Source: Actinomycetota bacterium
GTDB taxonomy: Bacteria > Actinomycetota > Acidimicrobiia > IMCC26256 > PALSA-555
NCBI GenBank assembly: GCA_016870595.1
Contig: VGBI01000007.1
Span: 1-57,265 of the forward strand
Direction of reading: 5' to 3'
Length of the DNA stretch: 57,265 bases
Shown here: piece after piece, positions 2-13,094 of the stretch
Position numbering within the stretch: position 1 is the stretch's first letter
Layout: each line of letters opens with the position of its first letter
The notes under the pieces: generated by a model
Database searches by the model: none
What the model was told of the DNA's origin: nothing
Seen by the model: the letters and a program-made list of their open reading frames with translations, nothing else
Translations under genes and position numbers: made by a program

Positions 2-2413
2 CGCGACGCGATCCTGCACCTCCTCGCCGACGACCCCACCCTCACCGAGGACGACGTCGTCGTGCTCTGCCCCAAGATCGAGACGTACGCGCCGCTCATC
101 AGCGCCGGCTTCGGCCCGAGCGCCGGATCGAGCGCCGGATCGAGCGCTGGCGCGGGATCGGGTGGCGGCGGCGACGGTCCGCCCCGGCTGCGCTACCGCG
201 TGACCGACCGCGGCCTGCGCGACGACTACCCGCTGTTCGCCGCGTTCGAGGCGCTGCTCGCACTGGTGGCCGGGCGGGCGAGCGCGTCGGAGCTGGTCGG
301 GTTGGTGTCGCTGCCCGCGGTGCGGGCCCGCTTCGGGTTCGACGACGCCGCGGTGGCGTCGATCGCCGAGTGGACCGAGGCCACGCACGTGCGCTGGGGC
401 CTCGACGCCGACGACCGGGCCCGGTTCGGCTTCGACCCGCCGCTCGCCGACAACTCGTGGCGGGCCGGGCTCGACCGCCTCCTCACCGGGGTCGCGGTGG
501 TCGAGACCGACCTCGCCCTCGGGCCCGGCGGCGTGGCCCCGTATCCGGTGGAGGGGGGCGCGGCCGAGATCGCCGGGGCGCTCGCCGACCTCGTCGCCCG
601 CCTCGCCGATCTCCGTGACCGCATCGCCACCGACCACTCGCTCGTCGCCTGGGGCGAGCTGCTCGTGAAGGCGGCCCGCGACTTCCTCGACCCCCGGCGG
701 GCCGACGACTGGCAGGCCGAGCGCCTCGCCCGGGCCATCACCGAGGCGATCGACGACGCCCGCCTCGGCGCGCCCGACGACGACCTCCGGGTCGGGTTCG
801 CCGACGTGCGGGCGCTGGTCACCGAGCGCCTCGGCGGCGCGCCCCGGCGCTCGGAGCTCCTCCGGGGCGGGGTGACCGTGACGTCGCTCACGCCGCTGCG
901 CTGGCTCCCCTACCGGGTGGTGTGCATCCTCGGGTTCGACGAGGACGGCACCGGCCCCGCCCACACCGACGGCGACGACCTCACCGCCGTCGATCCGCTC
1001 CTCGGCGACCGCGACCCACGCGCCGAGACCCGTCAGGCCCTGCTCGAAGCGGTGCTCGCCGCGGGCGACCACCTCGTGATCACCCGCACGGGCCACAGCG
1101 AGCGCACCAACGAGGAGGTCCCGCCCGCGGTCACCCTCGCCGAGCTACGCGACACGATCGTCGCCACCCTCGCGCCCGCCGAACCCGGGGCCGAACGACC
1201 GGTCGACCCGTGGTCACGCATCGAGACGCGCCACCCCCACCAGCCGTTCGACGCCCGGGTCTTCGCCCCCGGTGCGCTCGGGCACCCGGGACCGTGGTCG
1301 TTCGACCCGGTGGCGTGCGCCGGCGCCGCGGCCGTGCGCGACCGCGCGCCGGACCTGCCCGAGTTCCTCCCCGAGCCGCTCGAGGCGGTGGCGCCGCCGC
1401 CGGTCCTCGTCGGCGCGCAGGTCACCCGCTTCCTGCGCAACCCGGTGCACCACTTCTTCCGGGAGCGCCTCGGCGCCCACATCCCCGACGAGACCGACGC
1501 GACCACCGCCGACGAGTTCGCGCTCGCCCTCGGCGGCCTCGACGCGTGGCACGTGGCCGATCGGCTCATCACCGCCCGCTGCGCCGGACTGCCCGACGAC
1601 CGCTGGGCCGCGCAGGAGCGGGCGTCGGGCGCCCTCCCCCCCGGACCTCTCGGCGACGACGCCCTGACCGGAATCAAGGGGAAGGTCGATCAGATCTTCG
1701 CCCGGGCCCGCACCCTCGGCGTCGATCCGCTCGAGACCCGCACCGTGCCGGTGGAGGTCACCCTCGACGACGGCACCCGGATCGTGGCCAACCACGACCG
1801 CCGGGCCGGCCACGAGGACGACCAGCCCGATCACCCCGATCGTCGGCCGGGTCCGGCCCGGATCAGCTATTCGTCACTCAAGGACCACCACTACCTCGAG
1901 CACTGGATCGAGCTGATGGTGCTGTGCGCCGCACGTCCCGACGTGGAGTGGCGCAGCGTCCGGGTGTGCCGCGCCGACAAGAAGATCGTGGCCGTGGAGC
2001 TGGTGCCCCGCCTCCCGGCCGGCGCCGAGCGGGCCGAGGCCGCCCGCCGCGCCCTCGGCACGGTCGTCGACCTGATGCAGCGCGCGACCCGCGAGCCACT
2101 GCCACTGTTCCCCGAGTTCAGTCGGAAGCTGGTCGAGCAGCCCGACGCCGACCTGGGATCTGCCTGGCACACCGACGAAGGTGCGTTCCAGACGTCGGCG
2201 GGCGCGGGCGACGACGTGTTCGTCCGCCTCGCGTTCGACAACGCGGGCGTCGACGACATCCTCGGCCTCCCCGTGCGCGACGACGACCCCGACGGCGACG
2301 CCGACTTCCGGGCCGAGCGCTTCGCCGAGGTGCTGTGGGGCACCGTCGACGCCACCGCCATGGACCTCGAGACCGAGCCCACCACCGACGACGCCGGCGA
2401 GGACGACGCATGA
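2..2413 (+). CDS. recC: RecC, exodeoxyribonuclease V gamma subunit (5' truncated)
   Basis: The frame is open from the window edge and gives 803 residues of the C-terminal part of RecC. RecC is the non-catalytic scaffold of RecBCD; it holds an inactive helicase/nuclease fold and recognises Chi. The first visible residues contain a VVVLCPKIE segment followed by YAPLI, typical of the RecC helicase-like domain. The apparent GTG at 62 is internal, because the frame continues upstream with RecC-like sequence. A Ser/Ala/Gly-rich low-complexity stretch (about nt 115-175) interrupts the conserved region. The stop overlaps the recB start as ATGA, so the genes are co-translated. Identity rests on family resemblance plus the recB and recD neighbours. 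Confidence 0.93.
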   Translation, partial: RDAILHLLADDPTLTEDDVVVLCPKIETYAPLISAGFGPSAGSSAGSSAGAGSGGGGDGPPRLRYRVTDRGLRDDYPLFAAFEALLALVAGRASASELVGLVSLPAVRARFGFDDAAVASIAEWTEATHVRWGLDADDRARFGFDPPLADNSWRAGLDRLLTGVAVVETDLALGPGGVAPYPVEGGAAEIAGALADLVARLADLRDRIATDHSLVAWGELLVKAARDFLDPRRADDWQAERLARAITEAIDDARLGAPDDDLRVGFADVRALVTERLGGAPRRSELLRGGVTVTSLTPLRWLPYRVVCILGFDEDGTGPAHTDGDDLTAVDPLLGDRDPRAETRQALLEAVLAAGDHLVITRTGHSERTNEEVPPAVTLAELRDTIVATLAPAEPGAERPVDPWSRIETRHPHQPFDARVFAPGALGHPGPWSFDPVACAGAAAVRDRAPDLPEFLPEPLEAVAPPPVLVGAQVTRFLRNPVHHFFRERLGAHIPDETDATTADEFALALGGLDAWHVADRLITARCAGLPDDRWAAQERASGALPPGPLGDDALTGIKGKVDQIFARARTLGVDPLETRTVPVEVTLDDGTRIVANHDRRAGHEDDQPDHPDRRPGPARISYSSLKDHHYLEHWIELMVLCAARPDVEWRSVRVCRADKKIVAVELVPRLPAGAERAEAARRALGTVVDLMQRATREPLPLFPEFSRKLVEQPDADLGSAWHTDEGAFQTSAGAGDDVFVRLAFDNAGVDDILGLPVRDDDPDGDADFRAERFAEVLWGTVDATAMDLETEPTTDDAGEDDA
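118..150 (+). repeat. 12-bp tandem repeat inside recC
   Basis: Two exact copies and one partial copy of GAGCGCCGGATC encode a Ser-Ala-Gly-Ser linker in RecC. It looks like replication-slippage expansion of a disordered insert. Confidence 0.6.
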
Positions 2414-5400
2414 GCACCGTGGACGTGTTCGATCTCGCCGGACCCCTCCCCGAAGGCCTCACCGCGATCGGTGCGAGCGCCGGCACCGGCAAGACCTTCA
2501 CCCTCGCCGCGCTCGCGACCCGCATGCTCGCCGAGATCGACCTCCCGATCGAGCAGCTGCTCATCGTCACCTACACCCGGGCCGCTGCCGCCGAGCTACG
2601 TGACCGGGTCCGCAGCCGGATGGCCGAGACCGCGGCGATCCTCGCCGACCCCACTGCGCCGCTCGACGAGCCGTGGCTCGCTGCGCTCGCCGCCACCGAC
2701 CGCTCCGTCCGGGCCGAGCGCCTGGCCCGCGCGGTGGCTGACTTCGACGCCGCCACCATCTCGACCATCCACGGCTTCGCCCAGCAGGTGCTCGGCACCC
2801 TCGGAGTGGCCGCCCCCGGGGACCCCGACGCCCGGCTGGTCGAGGACGGCAAGCAGCTCGTCCGCCAGGTGTGCACCGACCTCCTGGTGCAGGAGGCCGT
2901 CGCCGATCCCACCGGCGTCGCCGAGCTCCCGAAGCTCGATGCGCTCGCCCGGGCGGTCGAGCGGGTGCTCGGCAACCCCGGGATCAGGCCGGTGCCGGCG
3001 GCCGACGTCCCGCCGGCGTTGCTGGAGGAGAACCCGGCGCTTCGCCAGGCCGTGCGGTGCCGCGAGCTCGTGGAGCGGGCCCTCGCCGCAGTGACCGACC
3101 GCCGCCGCAGCGCCGGAACGCTCGCCTTCGACGACCTGCTCGGCCGTCTGCGCGAGGGCCTCGACGACACAGACGTGCTCGAGGCAGTGCAGCGCCGCTT
3201 CCGCGTGGGCATGGTCGACGAGTTCCAGGACACCGACCCGATCCAGTGGGAGATCTTCGCGCGGATCTTCCGCGGCCCCGGCCACCGCCTCGTGCTGGTG
3301 GGTGATCCGAAGCAGGCGATCTACCGGTTCCGGGGTGCCGACGTGCACACCTATCTCGCGGCGGTCGAGGCGGCCGACACGCGCACGACCCTCACGCACA
3401 ACTGGCGCTCCGACGGGGCGATGCTCGACGCCCTCGACGGCGTGCTCGCCGACGCCACGTTCGGCGCACCCACGATCGCCTTCACGTCGGTGGAGCCGGC
3501 TCCCGACCACCGCGGTCGCCGGATCACCGATGCCGAGGGCACCCCGGTCGTCCCGTTGTCGATCCGGTTCGTCGCCGACGCCGACCTGCCGGTCGAGAAG
3601 CACGGGAAGTTCTTCCTCACCGGGATCACCGAGCAGACGATCGAGGACGACGTCGCCGCCCACGTCCGCGCCCTCCTCGACTCCGTCGAGGTCCCGCAGG
3701 TGGGCGCCACCCCGGCCCACCGCCTGGCCCCTCGTGACGTGGCGATCCTGGTCGGGCGGCACAACGAGGCCCCGCCGCTGCGCGCCGCACTCGAACGCCA
3801 CGGGATCCCGGCCACCATCACCCGCGTCGGGTCGGTGCTGGCCTCCCCGGCGGCCACCCAGTGGCGCTGGCTGCTCGAGGCGGTGGCCCGCCCCTCCGAC
3901 CCCGACCGGGCCCGGACCGCCGCCCTGTCATGGTTCTCCGACTGGACTGCGACACGGATCGCAACGGCGAACGACGACGAGCTCGGCGAGTTCCAGGAGC
4001 GGCTCGCCACCTGGGGTGCGCTGCTCGGTCGCCGGGGCGCTGCGGCGTTCTGCGCCCGGGTGTGGAACGAGAGTGGCGTCGTCGCCCGCCGCCTCGCCGG
4101 CCCCGACGGCGACCGCGAGGTGACCGACCTCGCCCACGTCGCCGAGCTGCTACAGGTGGCCGGACCCGGAGGGACGAGCGCCCCGGCCCTGCTCGACGCG
4201 CTCGACGCCCTCGCCGCCGAGCACGCCGGCGACTCCGAGGACGACATCACGGCCCGCCGGATCGAGTCGGAGGCCGCCGCCGTGCAGATCATGACGCTCT
4301 TCGCGGCCAAGGGACTCGAGTTCCCGGTCGTGTGCGTCCCCACGCTGTGGCGGGGTGGGTTGGTGGCGGTCAAGGACGTCGTGTACCGCACCGACGACGG
4401 TCGGCTCGAGGTCGACGTCGGCTCGATCGCCGGCGCGAAGTGGCCCGACAAGAAGGCATACGAGGCGCGGCGCAAGCGGGCCCAGCGGGAGCTGCGGGGC
4501 GAGAACCTGCGCCAGCTCTACGTCGCGCTCACCCGGGCCCGCCACCACACCGCGTTGTGGTGGAGCCTCGGCAAGGGCGGCGCCGACAACGGGCTCACCC
4601 GCCTGCTCTTCGCGCGCGATGCCGACGGTCGGATCGTCTCCGAGGAGTACGACCCCGATCCCGCAGTGAAGGACCCGTTCTCGCTGCGCCCCGACCCCGA
4701 TCTCACGGCGCGGGCCGCGGCCACGTTCGCCCGGGACGGCCTGGTCGAGGTGACCACCGTCGACCGGCCGGTCCCGGAGCCGGACACGGAATGGACCGAC
4801 CCGACCGGCGGCGGCGTGCGGGGCGCCGAGCCCGAGGTCGCGGTGTTCGACCGCGCGCTGCCCCGCCGGGCCCGGCGGTGGTCGTTCACCGGGATCATCG
4901 CCCGGGGCCGGATCGACGACGAGGCCCCGGGCGTGACCGGCCGGGTGGCCGCACCCGGTGCCGACGACCTCGAGACGGTCACCGACCCCGAGGACGTGAC
5001 CGACGGCGACAAGGGCGCCGGCGACGAGCCCACCGGCCCCGCCCCCGGACCGGGCGACCCGGTCGCCCCGGCCACCGAGGGCGCGGCGCTGCCGCTCGGG
5101 ACGATGCCCGCGGGCCGGGAGTTCGGCACGCTGGTGCACTCGGTGCTCGAGAAGGTCGACTTCACCTCGGCGGCGCTCGCCGGCGATCTCGCCGCCGATA
5201 TCGCCGAACGCCTGCGCTGGTCGAGCACGTCGCGCCTCGACGCGGACGCGCTCGTCGCCGGGCTCGTCGCCGCCATCGACTCGCCCCTCGGCCCGCGCTT
5301 CGGCGACGCCTCCCGCACGCTGCGCTCGTTCCCGCCCACCGATCGCCTCGACGAGCTGGCCTTCGACCTGCGGCTCCCCGACGACCGGGCCGACGTCGCG

Positions 5401-5931
5401 CCGGTCACCATGGCCGACCTCGGCGCGCTGGTCCGGCGGTACGCACCCCAAGGGCCGCTGCGCGACTGGGCCGACCGGTGTGCAGCCGGCCTCTTCCCCG
5501 TCGACCTCGTCGGGCAGCTCACCGGGTCGATCGACGCCGTGTTCCGGGTGCGGGGGACGAACGGTACGCCCGACCGCTTCGTCGTGTGCGACTACAAGAC
5601 CAACCGCATCAGCGGACCCGAGCGGGCCCCGACCATCGACGACTTCCACCCCGACCGGCTCGCCGAGGAGATGGCCCACGCGCACTACGTGCTGCAGATG
5701 CTGCTCTACTGCGTCGCCGTCCACCGCTACCTGCGCTGGCGCCTCCCCGGCTACGACCCCGCCACGCACCTCGCGGGTGGGGCCTACCTGTTCGTGCGCG
5801 GGATGGTCGGCCTCGACACCCCGACCACCGACCAGGGACCGCACGGCGTGTTCTCGTGGGACGTGCCGCCGGAACTCGTCGTGGCGACGAGCGACCTGCT
5901 CGCCGGTGTGCGCCCGGCGGTGACCCCGTGA
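2410..5931 (+). CDS. recB: RecB, exodeoxyribonuclease V beta subunit
   Basis: A 1173-residue SF1A helicase/nuclease, the 3'-5' motor and only nuclease of RecBCD. Visible motifs are Walker A ASAGTGKT (about residue 25), VDEFQDTDPIQWE (about 272), VGDPKQAIYRFRGAD (about 298), THNWRSD, FAAKGLEFPVV (about 635) and YVALTRARH (about 704). A C-terminal RecB nuclease domain carries GREFGTLVH (about 901), the VCDYKTN catalytic Asp-Tyr-Lys (about 1060) and an LQMLLYCVA segment. The ATG overlaps the recC stop by 4 nt, and the stop overlaps the recD GTG by 4 nt, giving a tight recCBD operon. All key motifs are intact, so it is probably active. Confidence 0.96.
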   Translation: MSTVDVFDLAGPLPEGLTAIGASAGTGKTFTLAALATRMLAEIDLPIEQLLIVTYTRAAAAELRDRVRSRMAETAAILADPTAPLDEPWLAALAATDRSVRAERLARAVADFDAATISTIHGFAQQVLGTLGVAAPGDPDARLVEDGKQLVRQVCTDLLVQEAVADPTGVAELPKLDALARAVERVLGNPGIRPVPAADVPPALLEENPALRQAVRCRELVERALAAVTDRRRSAGTLAFDDLLGRLREGLDDTDVLEAVQRRFRVGMVDEFQDTDPIQWEIFARIFRGPGHRLVLVGDPKQAIYRFRGADVHTYLAAVEAADTRTTLTHNWRSDGAMLDALDGVLADATFGAPTIAFTSVEPAPDHRGRRITDAEGTPVVPLSIRFVADADLPVEKHGKFFLTGITEQTIEDDVAAHVRALLDSVEVPQVGATPAHRLAPRDVAILVGRHNEAPPLRAALERHGIPATITRVGSVLASPAATQWRWLLEAVARPSDPDRARTAALSWFSDWTATRIATANDDELGEFQERLATWGALLGRRGAAAFCARVWNESGVVARRLAGPDGDREVTDLAHVAELLQVAGPGGTSAPALLDALDALAAEHAGDSEDDITARRIESEAAAVQIMTLFAAKGLEFPVVCVPTLWRGGLVAVKDVVYRTDDGRLEVDVGSIAGAKWPDKKAYEARRKRAQRELRGENLRQLYVALTRARHHTALWWSLGKGGADNGLTRLLFARDADGRIVSEEYDPDPAVKDPFSLRPDPDLTARAAATFARDGLVEVTTVDRPVPEPDTEWTDPTGGGVRGAEPEVAVFDRALPRRARRWSFTGIIARGRIDDEAPGVTGRVAAPGADDLETVTDPEDVTDGDKGAGDEPTGPAPGPGDPVAPATEGAALPLGTMPAGREFGTLVHSVLEKVDFTSAALAGDLAADIAERLRWSSTSRLDADALVAGLVAAIDSPLGPRFGDASRTLRSFPPTDRLDELAFDLRLPDDRADVAPVTMADLGALVRRYAPQGPLRDWADRCAAGLFPVDLVGQLTGSIDAVFRVRGTNGTPDRFVVCDYKTNRISGPERAPTIDDFHPDRLAEEMAHAHYVLQMLLYCVAVHRYLRWRLPGYDPATHLAGGAYLFVRGMVGLDTPTTDQGPHGVFSWDVPPELVVATSDLLAGVRPAVTP

Positions 5932-7853
5932 GCCCCACCGCCCGCGCCCCCCACCTCGATCCGGTCACCGAGTGCCTGCGCCCGTTCGTCGAGGCCGGGA
6001 TCCTCGCCGCCACCGACGTGCACGTGGCCGGCACGATCGCCCGGGTTACCGGCACCACCGACCCGGCCCTGGTGCTCGGCCTCGCCGTCGCCACCCGCGC
6101 CCCGCGCCTCGGGCACGTGTGCGCCGACCTGCGCACCGTCGCCGAACACGCGGTGCCGGTCGCCGTCGACGGTGAAGAGGCGGATGGCCCCGTGCCCACA
6201 CTGCCGTGGCCCGAGCCCGACGCGTGGATCGCCGCGCTCGCGGCGTCGCCGCTGACCCGGGCCCCGGGTGAGGACCGGGTGGTCGACGGCCGGGCCGCCC
6301 CGCTCGTGCTCGACCCCGCCACCGGCCGCTGCTGGACCGACCGCTACCACCGCTACGAGGCGCAGGTCGCGGCCGACCTGCGGGCCCGCGCCGCGGCCAC
6401 CGGCGGCTGCCTCGCCCCGTCGGATGCGCTCGAGGCCGCCCTGGCCGCAGCGCTCCCCGACCCCGACCCCGATCCCACCCGGCCCGATCCCGCCCGGCCC
6501 GAGGCCCGGCCCAACCGCCAGCGCGAGGCGGCCCGGGTCATCCTCACCCGCCGCCTCGCCGTGGTCGCAGGCGGCCCGGGCACGGGCAAGACCCACACCA
6601 TCGCCCGGGCCATCACGGTGGCCCGACAGCTGCAGGACCCCGACCGGCCGCTGCAGATCGCGCTCGCCGCCCCGACGGGCAAGGCCGCGGCGCGCATGAC
6701 CGAGGCGCTCGAGCAGGCCGGGGGCGACGCCGCCACCGACGCCACCGCGACCACGGGGACGACCCGGCTCACCGCCTCCACCCTGCACCGGCTCCTCGGC
6801 GGGCGGCCCGACGCGACCCGCTTCCGCCACCACCGCGACAACCCGCTCCCCCACGACCTGGTCATCGTCGACGAGACGTCGATGGTCGCGCTGCCGTTGA
6901 TGGCCCGCCTGCTCGAGGCGGTGCGCCCCGACGCGACCGTGGTGCTCGTGGGCGACCCGTTCCAGCTGGTGAGCATCGAGGCCGGGGCCGTGCTCGGGGA
7001 GATCGTCGGGCCGGTGGCCGACGGCACGATGGTCGCCCCGACCAACCCCGTCACCGCCCGGCTCGCCGAGCAGGTGGTGGTGCTCGACCGCGTGCACCGC
7101 TTCACCGCCGACTCGCGCATCGCCGCGCTCGCCGACCACATCCGACTCGGGCGTGCCGACGAGGCCTTGGTGCTCCTGCGCGAACCACCGGCGGCGGACG
7201 CCCGACCCGAGCTCACCTGGATCGAGCCCGACGACGCCGCGGGCGTCGACGGGTTGCTCGAGACCGTGATCGAGCACGCGCGCGAGGTTGTCCGGATCGC
7301 CCGGTCCGGCGACCCCGACGCCGGACCGACGGGTATCGCGGCGGCGACGGCGTGCAAGGTCCTGACCGCGACCCACCACGGCGACCTCGGCCGCCGCCGG
7401 ATCACCGAGCGGATCGAGGCCGCGCTGCGCGCCCACCTCGACGACGACTCCATCGGACGCCGGTGGTACCGGGGGCGGCCGGTGATCGCGACGGCCAACG
7501 ACTACCGCACCCGCCTGTTCAACGGCGACGTTGGCCTGACCGTCGTCACGCCCGAGGGCGCGACCCGGGTGGTGTTCGAGGGCGACCGGACCTTCGCCCC
7601 GGCCCAGGTCAGCGGGCTCGAGACCTGGTGGGCCATGACCGTGCACAAGAGCCAGGGCTCGGAGTTCGGGCACGTGGTCGTGACCCTCCCGCCCGCGCCG
7701 TCGCCGCTGCTGACCCGGGAACTGCTCTACACGGCGGTGACCCGGGCCCGGACCCAGGTCACCGTCGTCGCGCGCGAGGACTCGGTCCGGGCCGCCGTGG
7801 GCACCTCCGTCCAGCGCACGTCCGGGCTGCGCCAGGCCCTCTGGAGCACCTGA
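5928..7853 (+). CDS. recD: RecD, exodeoxyribonuclease V alpha subunit
   Basis: A 641-residue SF1B 5'-3' helicase, the fast motor of RecBCD. The N-terminal region (1-200) contains the RecD interaction segment LGLAVATRAPRLGHVC. Walker A is GGPGTGKTHT (about 215), followed by APTGKAAARM, VDETSMV (about 314), VGDPFQL and, near the C-terminus, MTVHKSQGSEF (about 570) and LLYTAVTRAR. The start is GTG, in a GTGA overlap with the recB stop. Completing recC-recB-recD argues for a functional Chi-regulated end-resection enzyme rather than a stand-alone RecD2. Confidence 0.95.
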   Translation: MSPTARAPHLDPVTECLRPFVEAGILAATDVHVAGTIARVTGTTDPALVLGLAVATRAPRLGHVCADLRTVAEHAVPVAVDGEEADGPVPTLPWPEPDAWIAALAASPLTRAPGEDRVVDGRAAPLVLDPATGRCWTDRYHRYEAQVAADLRARAAATGGCLAPSDALEAALAAALPDPDPDPTRPDPARPEARPNRQREAARVILTRRLAVVAGGPGTGKTHTIARAITVARQLQDPDRPLQIALAAPTGKAAARMTEALEQAGGDAATDATATTGTTRLTASTLHRLLGGRPDATRFRHHRDNPLPHDLVIVDETSMVALPLMARLLEAVRPDATVVLVGDPFQLVSIEAGAVLGEIVGPVADGTMVAPTNPVTARLAEQVVVLDRVHRFTADSRIAALADHIRLGRADEALVLLREPPAADARPELTWIEPDDAAGVDGLLETVIEHAREVVRIARSGDPDAGPTGIAAATACKVLTATHHGDLGRRRITERIEAALRAHLDDDSIGRRWYRGRPVIATANDYRTRLFNGDVGLTVVTPEGATRVVFEGDRTFAPAQVSGLETWWAMTVHKSQGSEFGHVVVTLPPAPSPLLTRELLYTAVTRARTQVTVVAREDSVRAAVGTSVQRTSGLRQALWST

Positions 7854-7933: not shown

Positions 7934-8438
7934 ATGCCCGCGCCCGACGCCGCCGCGCCCGACGCGTCCCACGAGCCCACCGACCCGACCGTCGACGCCG
8001 ACCTCGACGATCTGGACGACGAGGACGAGGACGAAGACGAGGACGAGGAGATCGAGATCCCCGACGTCTTCGAGATCGCCGGGCCGATCACACTGCCGAC
8101 CACCCTCGTGTACGGCGAGTACAGCGACGAGATCCTCTTCGTCCCCCGCGCCCTCGTCGATGCGATCGAACGGGTGTGGAACGAGTTCGACTGGGACCGT
8201 GCGGAACTCGAAGGGATCGAATGGATCGACGTGGTGCCGTGGACGCCCAGATCCAGGGGGGTGGTTGCCCAAGGCGGTGGTGACCGAGTTCGGCACCCGC
8301 AGCGAATCGCTCTTCGACGGAGCGTGCCTGTCCTTCGACCCCGACGACGCCGACGCCATCGTCGCCCGCCTCACCGAGGCCGGGTACACGTGCGAGGAGG
8401 ACTCCTGGGCGATCGAGTTCGTCTGCACGGGCTACTGA
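7934..8438 (+). pseudogene. Highly acidic uncharacterised protein, frameshifted at a G6 run
   Basis: An ATG with a GGAG ribosome site starts a protein of extreme acidity: about 35 Asp/Glu against 3 Lys/Arg in its first 105 residues, including twelve acidic residues in a row (28-39). The reading frame then shifts. The first frame degenerates into Arg-rich sequence after nt about 8255, while the next frame continues with natural-looking sequence (LPKAVVTEFGTRSES to WAIEFVCTGY) and stops at 8438. Removing one G from the six at 8256-8261 joins them into 167 residues. It could be a sequencing error, a recent mutation or true slippage. I do not recognise the family. It lies 80 bp after recD and just before an Fe-S nuclease. 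Confidence 0.7.
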
Positions 8439-8473
8439 CCGGCAGCCCGGGCGGTCGTGTCACACCCCCGTGC

Positions 8474-8479
8474 GAGCAT
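8474..8479 (+). promoter_or_regulatory. Possible leaderless -10 box for the Fe-S nuclease gene
   Basis: GAGCAT lies 6 nt before the ATG at 8486 and there is no Shine-Dalgarno sequence. This resembles, weakly, the GAGACT boxes seen elsewhere in the window. Confidence 0.3.
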
Positions 8480-8485
8480 GACCCC

Positions 8486-9280
8486 ATGCCCAGCGACCCC
8501 ACTCCCTCCCGCCCCGACGCCGGTGCTGCCCGGCGGGCGTTCTCCGTCTCGTCCACCACGACCTACGAGACCTGTCCCCGGCGCTACCGCTTCGGCTACG
8601 TGGAGCGGATCCCGACCGACCGGGCCGAGGCTCCCGAGCCGTGGCGCTTCGGCACCGTCGTGCACGCCGGGCTCGAGGCGGGCTACGCGGCCCATCGCGA
8701 CCGGGGCACCGGCTCGGACCTCACCCCGGGGATCCCGACCGCGGTCGCAGCGGTGCGGGAGGCCTGGGTGAGTGAGGCGATGCCCGACGACCCGGCCCGG
8801 CTCGCCGAGGCCGAGGCCCTCGTGACCCGGGCGCTCACCGAGGAGCGGCTGGCTCCGGCCGACATCCTCGGGGTCGAGCACCGGTTCCGGGCCGAGACCA
8901 CCGACGGCGTCCGCATCCACGGGATCAGCGACCTCGTCGTGCGGACCGCGCCGGACGCGGTCGAGGTGCGCGACCACAAGGTGACCCGGGCGGTCCGCAC
9001 GCCCGAGCAGCTCCGCGGCGACCTGCAGCTCGGCGTCTACGGGTGGCTGGCCCGGGCCACCTGGCCGTGGGCGAACCGCGTGGTGGTCGCCCACCACTAC
9101 CCGCTCACCGGGGCGCTGGTGCGCGTCGACCTCGACGACACCTGGATCGACGCGGCGCTCGACCGGGTCCGGGGCGTGGCCGGTCGGGTGGCCGGCGATC
9201 ACGAGTTCGCGCCCACCCCCGGCGAGCACTGCCGGAACTGTGCCTACACCGCGATCTGCGACGCCGCAGCCATCACCTGA
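8486..9280 (+). CDS. RecB-like PD-(D/E)XK nuclease with Fe-S cysteines (Cas4/AddB type)
   Basis: A 264-residue protein predicted to cut DNA exonucleolytically. It has the Cas4/AddB layout: Cys30 (TYETCPRRY) near the start and the C249-x2-C252-x5-C258 cluster at the end, the four ligands of a 4Fe-4S clasp. Between them lie the RecB-nuclease His60 (FGTVVHAGLE), Asp149 (GISDLV) and the Asp163/Lys165 pair (VRDHKV). No helicase domain is present. ATG 8486 is chosen because conserved sequence starts soon after it; the frame is open further upstream only because the acidic gene's first frame runs into it. There is no cas gene nearby, so a role in repair beside recCBD is more likely than CRISPR adaptation. 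Confidence 0.85.
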   Translation: MPSDPTPSRPDAGAARRAFSVSSTTTYETCPRRYRFGYVERIPTDRAEAPEPWRFGTVVHAGLEAGYAAHRDRGTGSDLTPGIPTAVAAVREAWVSEAMPDDPARLAEAEALVTRALTEERLAPADILGVEHRFRAETTDGVRIHGISDLVVRTAPDAVEVRDHKVTRAVRTPEQLRGDLQLGVYGWLARATWPWANRVVVAHHYPLTGALVRVDLDDTWIDAALDRVRGVAGRVAGDHEFAPTPGEHCRNCAYTAICDAAAIT

Positions 9281-9304: not shown

Positions 9305-9586
9305 TCACGAACGGGCGACGACGGTCAGGATCACCCCGAACGACGCGATCATCACCGTCAGCGTTGCGAGCAGCGCGGTGAGCAGTCGCCAGGTCTGGGC
9401 CCGGAATTCCTGGTGCATCTCGGCGACGACCTCGGATCGGAGCGTCGTCAGACGCTCCACCAACGTGCGCTCGGTGACGAGCGGGGACCATCCGCCCACC
9501 GGGCGATCCGTGAGAGAGGCGGCTGCTTCCACGTCGAACTTCCCCTCCAACAACAGTCGGATCCTCGACGCCTGCTCGTCGACCAC
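9305..9586 (-). CDS. Small protein with C-terminal membrane helix
   Basis: A 93-residue protein of unknown function. Residues about 36-64 are charged and probably helical (ERTLVERLTTLRSEVVAEM), followed by one hydrophobic helix (about 66-90) and a short RS tail. This suggests a tail-anchored or single-pass membrane protein with a coiled-coil base. I choose GTG 9586 over the longer GTG at 9622 because a GAGGAGG ribosome site sits 7 nt upstream and a GAGACT -10 lies about 38 nt upstream. It lies about 120 bp downstream of phnZ on the same strand, so it may be the third gene of that operon. Confidence 0.65.
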   Translation of the reverse strand: MVDEQASRIRLLLEGKFDVEAAASLTDRPVGGWSPLVTERTLVERLTTLRSEVVAEMHQEFRAQTWRLLTALLATLTVMIASFGVILTVVARS

Positions 9587-9623
9587 CAGCGGACCTCCTC
9601 GATCGCACGATCCGATCGCCACG

Positions 9624-11036: not shown

Positions 11037-11127
11037 CCGACGGGCCCGGGCTCCGAACCGCCCGATCCGGACCCCCGCGGCACACCGTGTGGATAGGACA
11101 GAATCGAGCACCTCCCCCGAGCCGCCC

Positions 11128-11186
11128 CGGCCCGAGCCCACCCGGCCCGAGCCCACCCGGCCCGAGCCCACCCGGCCCGAGCCACC
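11128..11186. repeat. 15-bp tandem repeat upstream of pafB
   Basis: Three exact copies of CGGCCCGAGCCCACC and a fourth copy one base shorter. If translated from GTG 11089 it would add a Pro-Glu-Pro-Thr-Arg tail to PafB; otherwise it lies in the 5' leader. Confidence 0.75.
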
Positions 11187-11208
11187 CGGCCCCGAGTCCC
11201 GGACGTCC

Positions 11209-12156
11209 ATGCCCCCGTCGCCGACCGACCGCATCCTGCGCCTCGCCGCCTACCTCGGCGAGCACCGGCGCGACGGCGTGACCCTCGACGGGATCGGTCG
11301 GGACGTGCCCGGGTACCGCGACGACCCCGGGGGACCCGACCTCGACCGGGGCTCGGCCGAGTGGGAGGCGGTCCGCCGGATGATCCGGCGGGACTTCGAG
11401 AGCCTGGCCACCGACTGGGGGATCGTCGCCGACTACGACGAGACCGAGCACCGGTACCGGCTGCGACCGCCGTTCTTCTCCCCGGCCGAGCGCCGGGACC
11501 TGATCTGGGCGGCGGCCGCGGTCACCGTGGCGGGCGTCGCCGACGGCCCCGCCGGTGCGATCGGGTCGAAGGTCGACGACCGGGCCGCCCGGGTCGTGGT
11601 GGCGGTGCACGACCTCGTCGACGACTTCCGCGACGCGATCGCCGACGGCGTGCCGGTGCAGTTCGACTACGACGGATCGACCCGGGTGGTGGAGCCGTGG
11701 GCGCTCGGGGTCTGGCGCAACCGGTGGTACCTGGCCGGCGGCGACCGCTCGCGCGACCTCGAGATGCGCCGGTTCCGCCTCGACCGGATCCGCACGACCA
11801 CCGACGGCACTGCGCTCACACGGATGGGAACCCCAGGCACGGTGACCGTGCCCGACTGGTTCGACATGGACAAGGCGTTCGACCTCGACCCCAACTCGTG
11901 GGGTCATGACGCGCCGCTCGAGGCGCAGGTGCGGGTGGCGATCGACCACGTACCCGCGTTCGTCGACGAGTTCGGCGGGACCGTGGTCGACGAGGCGACC
12001 GACCACGCCCGCATCAGCCTCACGGTGCGTCACCACGAGGCGTTCCTGGTCCGGGTCCTCGGGTTCCGGGGCAACGCCGTGGTGGAGGCGCCTCCCGAGC
12101 TGGTCGGTCTGGTCCGCGACCACCTCCGGGCCGTGGCCGGGAACGGCGCCCGCTGA
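11209..12156 (+). CDS. pafB: PafB-like WYL-domain transcriptional activator
   Basis: A 315-residue regulator. The N-terminal winged-helix region (about 1-90, TDRILRLAAYLGEHR) precedes a WYL domain (about 145-200) with FDYDG, RVVEPWALG, RWYLAGGDR and RRFRLDRI, and then a C-terminal extension. In mycobacteria PafB and PafC form a complex that activates many repair genes after DNA damage independently of LexA/RecA, probably sensing DNA ends or ssDNA through WYL. ATG 11209 starts the conserved part; a GTG at 11089 would add a repeat-encoded tail of 40 residues. No Shine-Dalgarno sequence is clear at either start. The pafC ATG overlaps the stop (TGATG). Confidence 0.88.
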   Translation: MPPSPTDRILRLAAYLGEHRRDGVTLDGIGRDVPGYRDDPGGPDLDRGSAEWEAVRRMIRRDFESLATDWGIVADYDETEHRYRLRPPFFSPAERRDLIWAAAAVTVAGVADGPAGAIGSKVDDRAARVVVAVHDLVDDFRDAIADGVPVQFDYDGSTRVVEPWALGVWRNRWYLAGGDRSRDLEMRRFRLDRIRTTTDGTALTRMGTPGTVTVPDWFDMDKAFDLDPNSWGHDAPLEAQVRVAIDHVPAFVDEFGGTVVDEATDHARISLTVRHHEAFLVRVLGFRGNAVVEAPPELVGLVRDHLRAVAGNGAR

Positions 12157-13094
12157 TGGCGGCGCTGACCCGGGCCCGCCAGTTCGAGATCCTGCGCGAG
12201 GTGCTCGCCCTCGCCGAGGAGCAGGGCTCGGTGCCGCTCGACGAGGCCGCCGCCACGGTCGGGATCACTCCCACGCAGCTGCGCGAGGTGCTCGATCCGG
12301 TGCTGTTCCTCGCCTTCCGTGACGACACGGGCGAGCTCATCGACCAGAGCGGGGCGTTCCTGCTCACCGACGACCACCTCTCGGTCGACGACGGCCACTG
12401 GCTGCGCGACCTCACCACCGAGCCGCCCGACCGCGACACCACGCTGCGCCTGCTCATCGCCACGACCACGCTGCGGGCCCTGCTGACCCGACCGGCGCCC
12501 CACCTCGACCGGGCCGCGCAGAAGCTGCGCGCGCACCTGCAGGTGGAGCTGCAGGTGCCACTCGACACCCCGGAGTTCCTCGAGGTCGTGCAGCAGGCCC
12601 ACGAGCGGGGCCGGTCGCTGCGGATCCGCTACCTCTCCGACGGTGCCGACACCGCGCGCGACCGCGAGATCCTCCCCTGGCGGGTGTTCGCCCAGTGGGA
12701 GCGCTGGTACGTGCGGGCGCGCGACGTCACCGAGACGGTGGCCAAGTTCTTCCGGGTCGACCGGATGCTCGACGCCGAGCTCGGCGACGTCGACTTCGAC
12801 CCGCCCGAGGACCACGAGGACATCCCCGAGTGGTTCGACCTCACCGCCCAGGTGCGCAGGGTGCGGGTCCGCGTCGCCGCCGACGCGCTCGAGCGCCTGC
12901 CCTCGCCCCACCGGGTCGAGCCGGTCGGCGCCCCCGCCCCGGGGATCGTCGAGGTCGAGATCGAGGTCTACGGGGACCGTCACCTCGACCACATCCTCCT
13001 CAGCCTCCCCGCCGACGCCGAGGTGTTCGGCCCCGACGGCACGGGCGAGCGCCGTCGGTCCCTGGCCGCCCGGCTCCTGAACGCCTACACCTGA
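12156..13094 (+). CDS. pafC: PafC-like WYL-domain transcriptional activator
   Basis: A 312-residue partner of PafB. The winged-helix N-terminus (RARQFEILREVLALAEE) is followed by a WYL domain (about 148-205) with IRYLSDG, REILPWRVF, RWYVRARD and FFRVDRM, and a C-terminal beta-rich extension. The pafB stop and pafC ATG share one base, so they are translated together and probably at equal amounts. Unlike in mycobacteria, no proteasome-accessory gene (pafA) or tatAC is adjacent. The recCBD operon, a plausible target class, lies 3.4 kb upstream. Confidence 0.88.
   Translation: MAALTRARQFEILREVLALAEEQGSVPLDEAAATVGITPTQLREVLDPVLFLAFRDDTGELIDQSGAFLLTDDHLSVDDGHWLRDLTTEPPDRDTTLRLLIATTTLRALLTRPAPHLDRAAQKLRAHLQVELQVPLDTPEFLEVVQQAHERGRSLRIRYLSDGADTARDREILPWRVFAQWERWYVRARDVTETVAKFFRVDRMLDAELGDVDFDPPEDHEDIPEWFDLTAQVRRVRVRVAADALERLPSPHRVEPVGAPAPGIVEVEIEVYGDRHLDHILLSLPADAEVFGPDGTGERRRSLAARLLNAYT

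Follow-up and report, generated by a model that had tools for sequence, protein, structure and literature searches.

The small gene directly downstream of recD in the DNA studied here (a stretch of 57,265 nucleotides from an Actinomycetota bacterium; hereafter, the window) is, judging from sequence comparison, a divergent member of a small, sparse and undescribed family of genes for acidic bacterial proteins. Genes of this family usually adjoin a helicase or a helicase-nuclease, and in two cases, the window and a second genome (G213), the family gene comes directly after recD. Since family genes repeatedly adjoin helicases and nucleases of repair and phage defense, the protein may be a helper or a brake. 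Our preferred reading, to which we assign a probability of about 0.45, is that the gene product is a small acidic protein that assists or regulates helicase-nuclease machines; for the window protein, the partner would probably be RecBCD.

The window features on which the argument draws are as follows, all on the plus strand:

2 to 2413, plus: recC, partial, with its 5' end beyond the window (RecC_C, E 1.1e-37, Pfam)
2410 to 5931, plus: recB, with helicase and PD-(D/E)XK nuclease domain (UvrD-helicase, E 1.7e-46; PDDEXK_1, E 6.9e-6; Pfam)
5928 to 7853, plus: recD (AAA_19, AAA_30, RecD_N and UvrD_C_2, Pfam)
7934 to 8438, plus: acidic gene, putatively a divergent representative of the undescribed family; bridging the frame switch gives 167 aa
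8015 to 8050, plus: run of 12 Asp/Glu residues (residues 28-39), absent from other family members
8255 to 8405, plus: conserved C-terminal domain (residues 108-157), 35.8 bits for the stretch
8256 to 8261, plus: run of six G, site of the coding-frame switch, marked by a GC3 switch
8486 to 9280, plus: stand-alone PD-(D/E)XK nuclease with a four-Cys Fe-S-type motif (PDDEXK_1, E 7.9e-35, 121.4 bits)

The starts of recB and recD each overlap the preceding stop by a few bases. The acidic gene begins 80 bp downstream of recD, with GAGGAG immediately 5' of its ATG, and ends 47 bp upstream of the nuclease gene. Its product is very acidic, as a preliminary description of this DNA had noticed: residues 1-105 hold 35 Asp/Glu against 3 Lys/Arg, and residues 28-39 (DDEDEDEDEDEE) are 12 consecutive Asp/Glu; across all six reading frames, the window has no other stretch of at least nine consecutive acidic residues. 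When the frame switch is bridged, the protein has 167 residues, 47 of them acidic and 8 basic, and a pI of 4.05.

A mechanical ORF scan joins this gene and the nuclease into one ORF of 448 aa (7934-9280). We rejected this ORF as a single gene and regard it as an accidental chimera of the two, because the acidic frame breaks at the six-G run. Up to 8255, the frame of 7934 has a GC3 of 0.91; between 8262 and the stop at 8438, a GC3 of 0.97 is found in the +1 frame instead. The coding frame therefore changes at the G run, and the 448-aa fusion, judged by codon composition, follows the wrong frame from there to this stop. The nuclease is a separate, intact gene with its ATG at 8486, and in this form the helicase-less nuclease reported after the acidic gene is borne out.

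The frame break points either to gene loss in the lineage of this genome or to a fault of the assembly, a draft of 165 contigs in which the break sits in a homopolymer. The acidic gene may be decaying in the window genome, and one could go further and regard it as a pseudogene without function, left over in a slot whose contents are exchanged. Such a reading would account for the frame switch, for the presence of another gene in the same slot of a sister species (G001, see below), and for the stops found in the copies of two other genomes (G504 and G700). However, GC3 is high in both halves and the conserved domain is free of stops, and therefore any decay would be recent, while a break within a homopolymer of such a draft may itself be an error. 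We therefore consider a mere remnant quite improbable.

The family was assembled by reciprocal and profile searches. Searching 395 genomes of the class with the window protein returned one other match at E <0.001, a 329-aa protein of G213 (E 8.3e-7), and the reverse search with this protein returned the window locus (E 5.2e-4) together with strong matches in G081, G126, G184 and G320 (11 of the 395 genomes matched at E up to 0.01). A five-member profile built without the window protein matched 4 of 396 genomes from the phylum, namely G495, G504, G648 and the window genome, the last at its acidic locus with E 3.8e-6. Later searches added G762 (2 of 197 genomes) and G700 (3 of 39 genomes), and the last search of the class matched 6 of 296 genomes. 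An eight-member HMM, again without the window protein, scores the window protein at 37.4 bits, whereas none of 3000 shuffles exceeds 10.2 bits. Without any frame repair, the +1-frame ORF still reaches 34.6 bits against the same HMM. Those members that carry taxon names come from metagenome-assembled Acidimicrobiia or Actinomycetes, which makes an acidimicrobial origin of the window most likely.

Residues 108-157 are the sole part of the window protein with a significant family score. An N-terminal VYG...LFVP stretch, a hairpin in the family, was aligned by MAFFT, but scores −2.1 bits alone, and the segment of the TWGE helix is missing from the window protein. Family-wide features are the C-terminal domain and the overall acidic charge (all measured members have a pI of 4.05-4.93), whereas no other member shares the 12-residue acidic run of the window protein. 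The N-terminal parts differ, being mostly beta in G213 and its like, further extended in G495, almost absent in G648 and G320, and an Asp/Glu tail in the window protein. The proteins of G495 (L129 5687-6766, minus strand) and G700 (L136 685-1602, plus strand) are extended N-terminally by a further 200 residues or so, which other members do not have.

Several weaker matches were left out of the family: 34 of the 36 matching genomes of the 395-genome class search (E 0.0067 to 0.1; the window genome and G213 were kept); G258 (E 9.2e-4 with the G213 query), whose examined region gave no tblastn match; G243, G266, G347 and G373 (E 0.006-0.009, G213 query); and G288 (E 0.002 over 24 profile positions only), which has no recognizable full gene. 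Membership in DUF6678 was rejected as well, with the window protein at 15.3 bits against a gathering cut-off of 24.5 and no other family member matching DUF6678. At the thresholds used, the family gave no convincing match in Pfam, PHROGs or PDB sequences, nor did the window protein in NCBIfam, and the window and G213 proteins matched no PADLOC model.

Structure prediction, which had been proposed as a check, gave a poor AlphaFold model of the window core (pLDDT 53) and a modest one of the G213 protein (pLDDT 63, pTM 0.60), the last 100 residues of the latter being mostly at 65-94. In both models, the C-terminal domain is predicted to consist of a helix, a beta hairpin, a helix and a strand. 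Foldseek returned nothing at E up to 0.001 for the G213 model against PDB and viral models, and a second look at the same model with VIA gave a Z of 3.5 at most, which is not meaningful.

Genomic context links the family to helicase-nuclease machines. We distinguished ten family loci, counting G495 and G504 once and G126 and G320 once, and a helicase lies within two genes of the family gene at seven of them:

Locus 1, the window: after recCBD, with recD directly upstream
Locus 2, G213: 325 bp after recD, same strand
Locus 3, G081: 21 bp from a 1843-aa helicase with DUF4011, AAA_11/12, an MTES_1575 nuclease and DUF3320
Locus 4, G648: same-strand series of a NERD-type UvrD helicase, the family gene, an unnamed 271-aa gene, a UvrD helicase, DrmA and DrmB
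Locus 5, G495/G504: 67 bp before a DNA methylase that is followed by a DpdJ-like helicase, same strand
Locus 6, G762: divergent from a PLD-DEAD-DUF3427 type IV restriction helicase (828 bits)
Locus 7, G184 contig C151: divergent from a NERD-UvrD helicase

The helicase-nuclease of G081 matches PADLOC PDC-S37 with 1317 bits, and the contig also carries recCBD, at a distance of about 8 kb. The G648 cluster (L127 782-11752, minus strand) is DISARM-like, with DrmA at 2.6e-244 and DrmB at 5.2e-68; neither DrmC nor a methylase was recognized among the genes tested. Three PADLOC models, MTase_II, HmaB and DUF1156, match the methylase of G495/G504, and G504 also has an HmaA-like helicase about 4 kb away. 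No helicase was seen at the remaining three loci, namely a second locus of G184 (C161), one side of which ends at the contig end, the G126/G320 locus, and G700, where a decayed copy with stops lies near a serine recombinase.

In seven of these genomes, UvrD and Helicase_C models match 132 times in 26 Mb, which gives a chance of about 2% for a helicase among the four nearest genes and a binomial probability of 2e-10 for seven of ten loci, a rough estimate that assumes about 0.95 genes per kb, draws on few loci, and uses a category, helicase, picked after the first cases had been seen. Were helicases four times as frequent, the probability would be 3e-6.

The same loci can be read differently, with the family gene as cargo of mobile defense islands that has a function of its own, for example as a defense component that works alone, as one partner of a toxin-antitoxin pair or as an immunity-like protein, and makes no contact with the neighboring helicase. 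The sparse spread across distant families and the variable N-termini are in line with such cargo, as are the neighbors at two loci, where the other side of the G762 gene holds an HNH protein and an IS3-type transposase (named by eye) and G700 has the serine recombinase; further, no family member was found next to any recD in the other recD-bearing relatives examined. However, in G648 and G495/G504 the family gene sits inside the helicase cluster, on the same strand and with short gaps, an arrangement more in keeping with a component than with a passenger. Nor was a toxin partner recognized adjacent to a family gene. We think that independent cargo is unlikely, although it deserves to be kept in mind.

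The preliminary description had gone further in suggesting that recCBD, the acidic gene and the nuclease may form one repair or defense module, and here the nuclease and the acidic gene have to be treated separately. Residues H60, D149, D163, K165, Q181 and Y185 of the nuclease, as well as C30, C249, C252 and C258, are invariant across seven orthologs. The PD-(D/E)XK motifs and the four Cys resemble those of the RecB-family/AddB-type Fe-S exonucleases (PF12705), but the window nuclease is stand-alone and lacks a helicase domain. "Cas4/AddB-like", as it had been called, is thus fair as a description, whereas we do not class it as Cas4, because the Cas4 models score under their curated cut-offs (40 vs. 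65 bits in NCBIfam and 16.6 vs. 22.7 in Pfam).

Orthologs of the nuclease are present in G001 (70% identity), G003 (61%), G005 (56%), G041 (43%), G026 (43%) and G037 (35%), and these orthologs are not linked to the acidic gene. Among 61 genomes searched for both genes, recD is found in all seven nuclease carriers (the window genome included) vs. six of the 54 others (Fisher 3.9e-6, a value that ignores kinship; partial or weak recD matches in G019, G038 and G044 were scored as absent). As the nuclease occurs only in those of the 61 genomes that have recD, it plausibly works together with RecBCD, and this half of the proposed module is supported in part. Despite their co-occurrence, however, the nuclease and recCBD are seldom adjacent: in G037, recC shares the strand of the nuclease and begins 5.4 kb beyond it, the two are about 1.4 Mb apart in G026, and they lie on separate contigs of the draft genomes G003, G005 and G041.

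The closest order is that of the sister species G001, in which recC, recB, recD, another gene, the nuclease, HD, PhyH, two WYL genes and a pyrophosphatase follow one another as in the window, apart from the gene in the slot. There, the slot holds a gene that has no similarity to the acidic gene and whose short product has Cys pairs resembling those of zinc ribbons. This slot gene (L041 6645-6947, plus strand) has a DPDDDDDE stretch of its own. The order recCBD, acidic gene, nuclease is kept in none of the nuclease-bearing relatives, and a single-sequence search of 100 genomes found the acidic gene in none of the 99 relatives, the window genome being the sole positive. A fixed module of the three is therefore rejected, with the slot occupied otherwise in G001 and the nuclease distant or on other contigs elsewhere. 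Since the sister species has the same recCBD and nuclease without the acidic gene, RecBCD does not need this gene, and because the slot there holds a different gene, the acidic gene is plausibly a late or replaceable addition beside recCBD and the nuclease. That the acidic protein could regulate RecBCD or the nuclease, as the preliminary description had also suggested, is in part supported by the link of the family to helicase-nuclease machines, with a helicase at seven of the ten loci.

If the acidic protein is an accessory or regulatory protein of such machines, its common core might dock on the neighboring motor or nuclease and modulate it, while the variable N-terminal parts, such as the beta part of G213, the extension of G495 and the Asp/Glu tail of the window protein, might tune that docking contact. 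The Asp/Glu tail could compete with DNA for the basic DNA-binding surfaces of RecB or RecC. A bolder form of this reading, which we consider rather unlikely, is a transferable chromosomal acidic regulator with one docking domain and interchangeable N-termini that would serve machines unrelated to one another (housekeeping RecBCD and the DISARM-like, NERD-helicase, DUF4011 and type IV restriction systems) as a brake or as a gate between self and non-self, possibly by mimicking a DNA end. If true, one small domain that partners RecBCD and several defense helicases would link repair and immune machines, and would give a way into the question of how bacteria protect their own DNA from aggressive helicase-nucleases. 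With the family loci listed, the idea of a shared partner can be tested directly. The idea that RecBCD has small acidic partners is already known, chiefly from phages, and a bacterial family common to RecBCD and several defense helicases would be a new version of it. Among the papers covered, our literature search found no description of such a family or neighborhood.

Among known proteins, the closest in kind are lambda Gam and T7 gp5.9, with which the window protein shares small size, acidity, a link to RecBCD and possibly DNA mimicry. By contrast with these, the window gene is chromosomal and lies beside recD, and its family is also found beside several other helicase systems. For the small acidic RecBCD inhibitors gp5.9 and Gam, size and charge are associated with DNA mimicry (PMC9836394). 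It is tempting to take the window protein as a DNA mimic of this type that inhibits RecBCD or the adjacent nuclease, given its strong negative charge and small size, traits tied to mimicry (PMC9836394), and the location of its gene after recD. However, many acidic proteins are not DNA mimics, the acidic run is absent from other family members, the G213 model has no fold match, and sequence matches are lacking in phage, plasmid and viral-contig collections. A tblastn search of the acidic protein against 50,697 phage records gave no match and the best PHROGs family match was at E 0.12, both searches which a distant relationship to Gam or gp5.9 could escape; viral structure models included no close match to the G213 model. 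Single-sequence searches found no relative of the acidic protein in the genome contig collection or in plasmids, and no match for two other family members in plasmids and viral contigs. DNA mimicry by the window protein is possible and compatible with its size and charge, but a Gam-like inhibitor strikes us as a poor bet.

Returning to an accessory protein of helicase-nuclease machines, DISARM and related defense systems with YprA helicases offer the other point of comparison, as the family gene of G648 shares a same-strand cluster with DrmA and DrmB. However, PADLOC has no model that matches the window or the G213 member, family genes are also found where there is neither DrmA nor DrmB, and the nearest helicases in the window are RecB and RecD. 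Many YprA-helicase defense systems have been described, and no such small acidic component was seen among those in the text consulted (PMC12458937).

Beyond the nuclease gene and convergent with it, the window encodes a small protein with a hydrophobic C-terminal segment (9305-9622, minus strand), for which a Pfam search returned nothing over the cut-off; similar proteins are encoded near the nuclease orthologs in L042 and L043. Further downstream lies an adjacent pair of genes for WYL/WCX-domain regulators (11089-12156 and 12156-13094, plus strand), which is also found in the sister species, and the second of the two matches the PafC helix-turn-helix below threshold. PafBC is an actinobacterial regulator of the DNA-damage response, and therefore the WYL/WCX pair may bear on the nearby recCBD.
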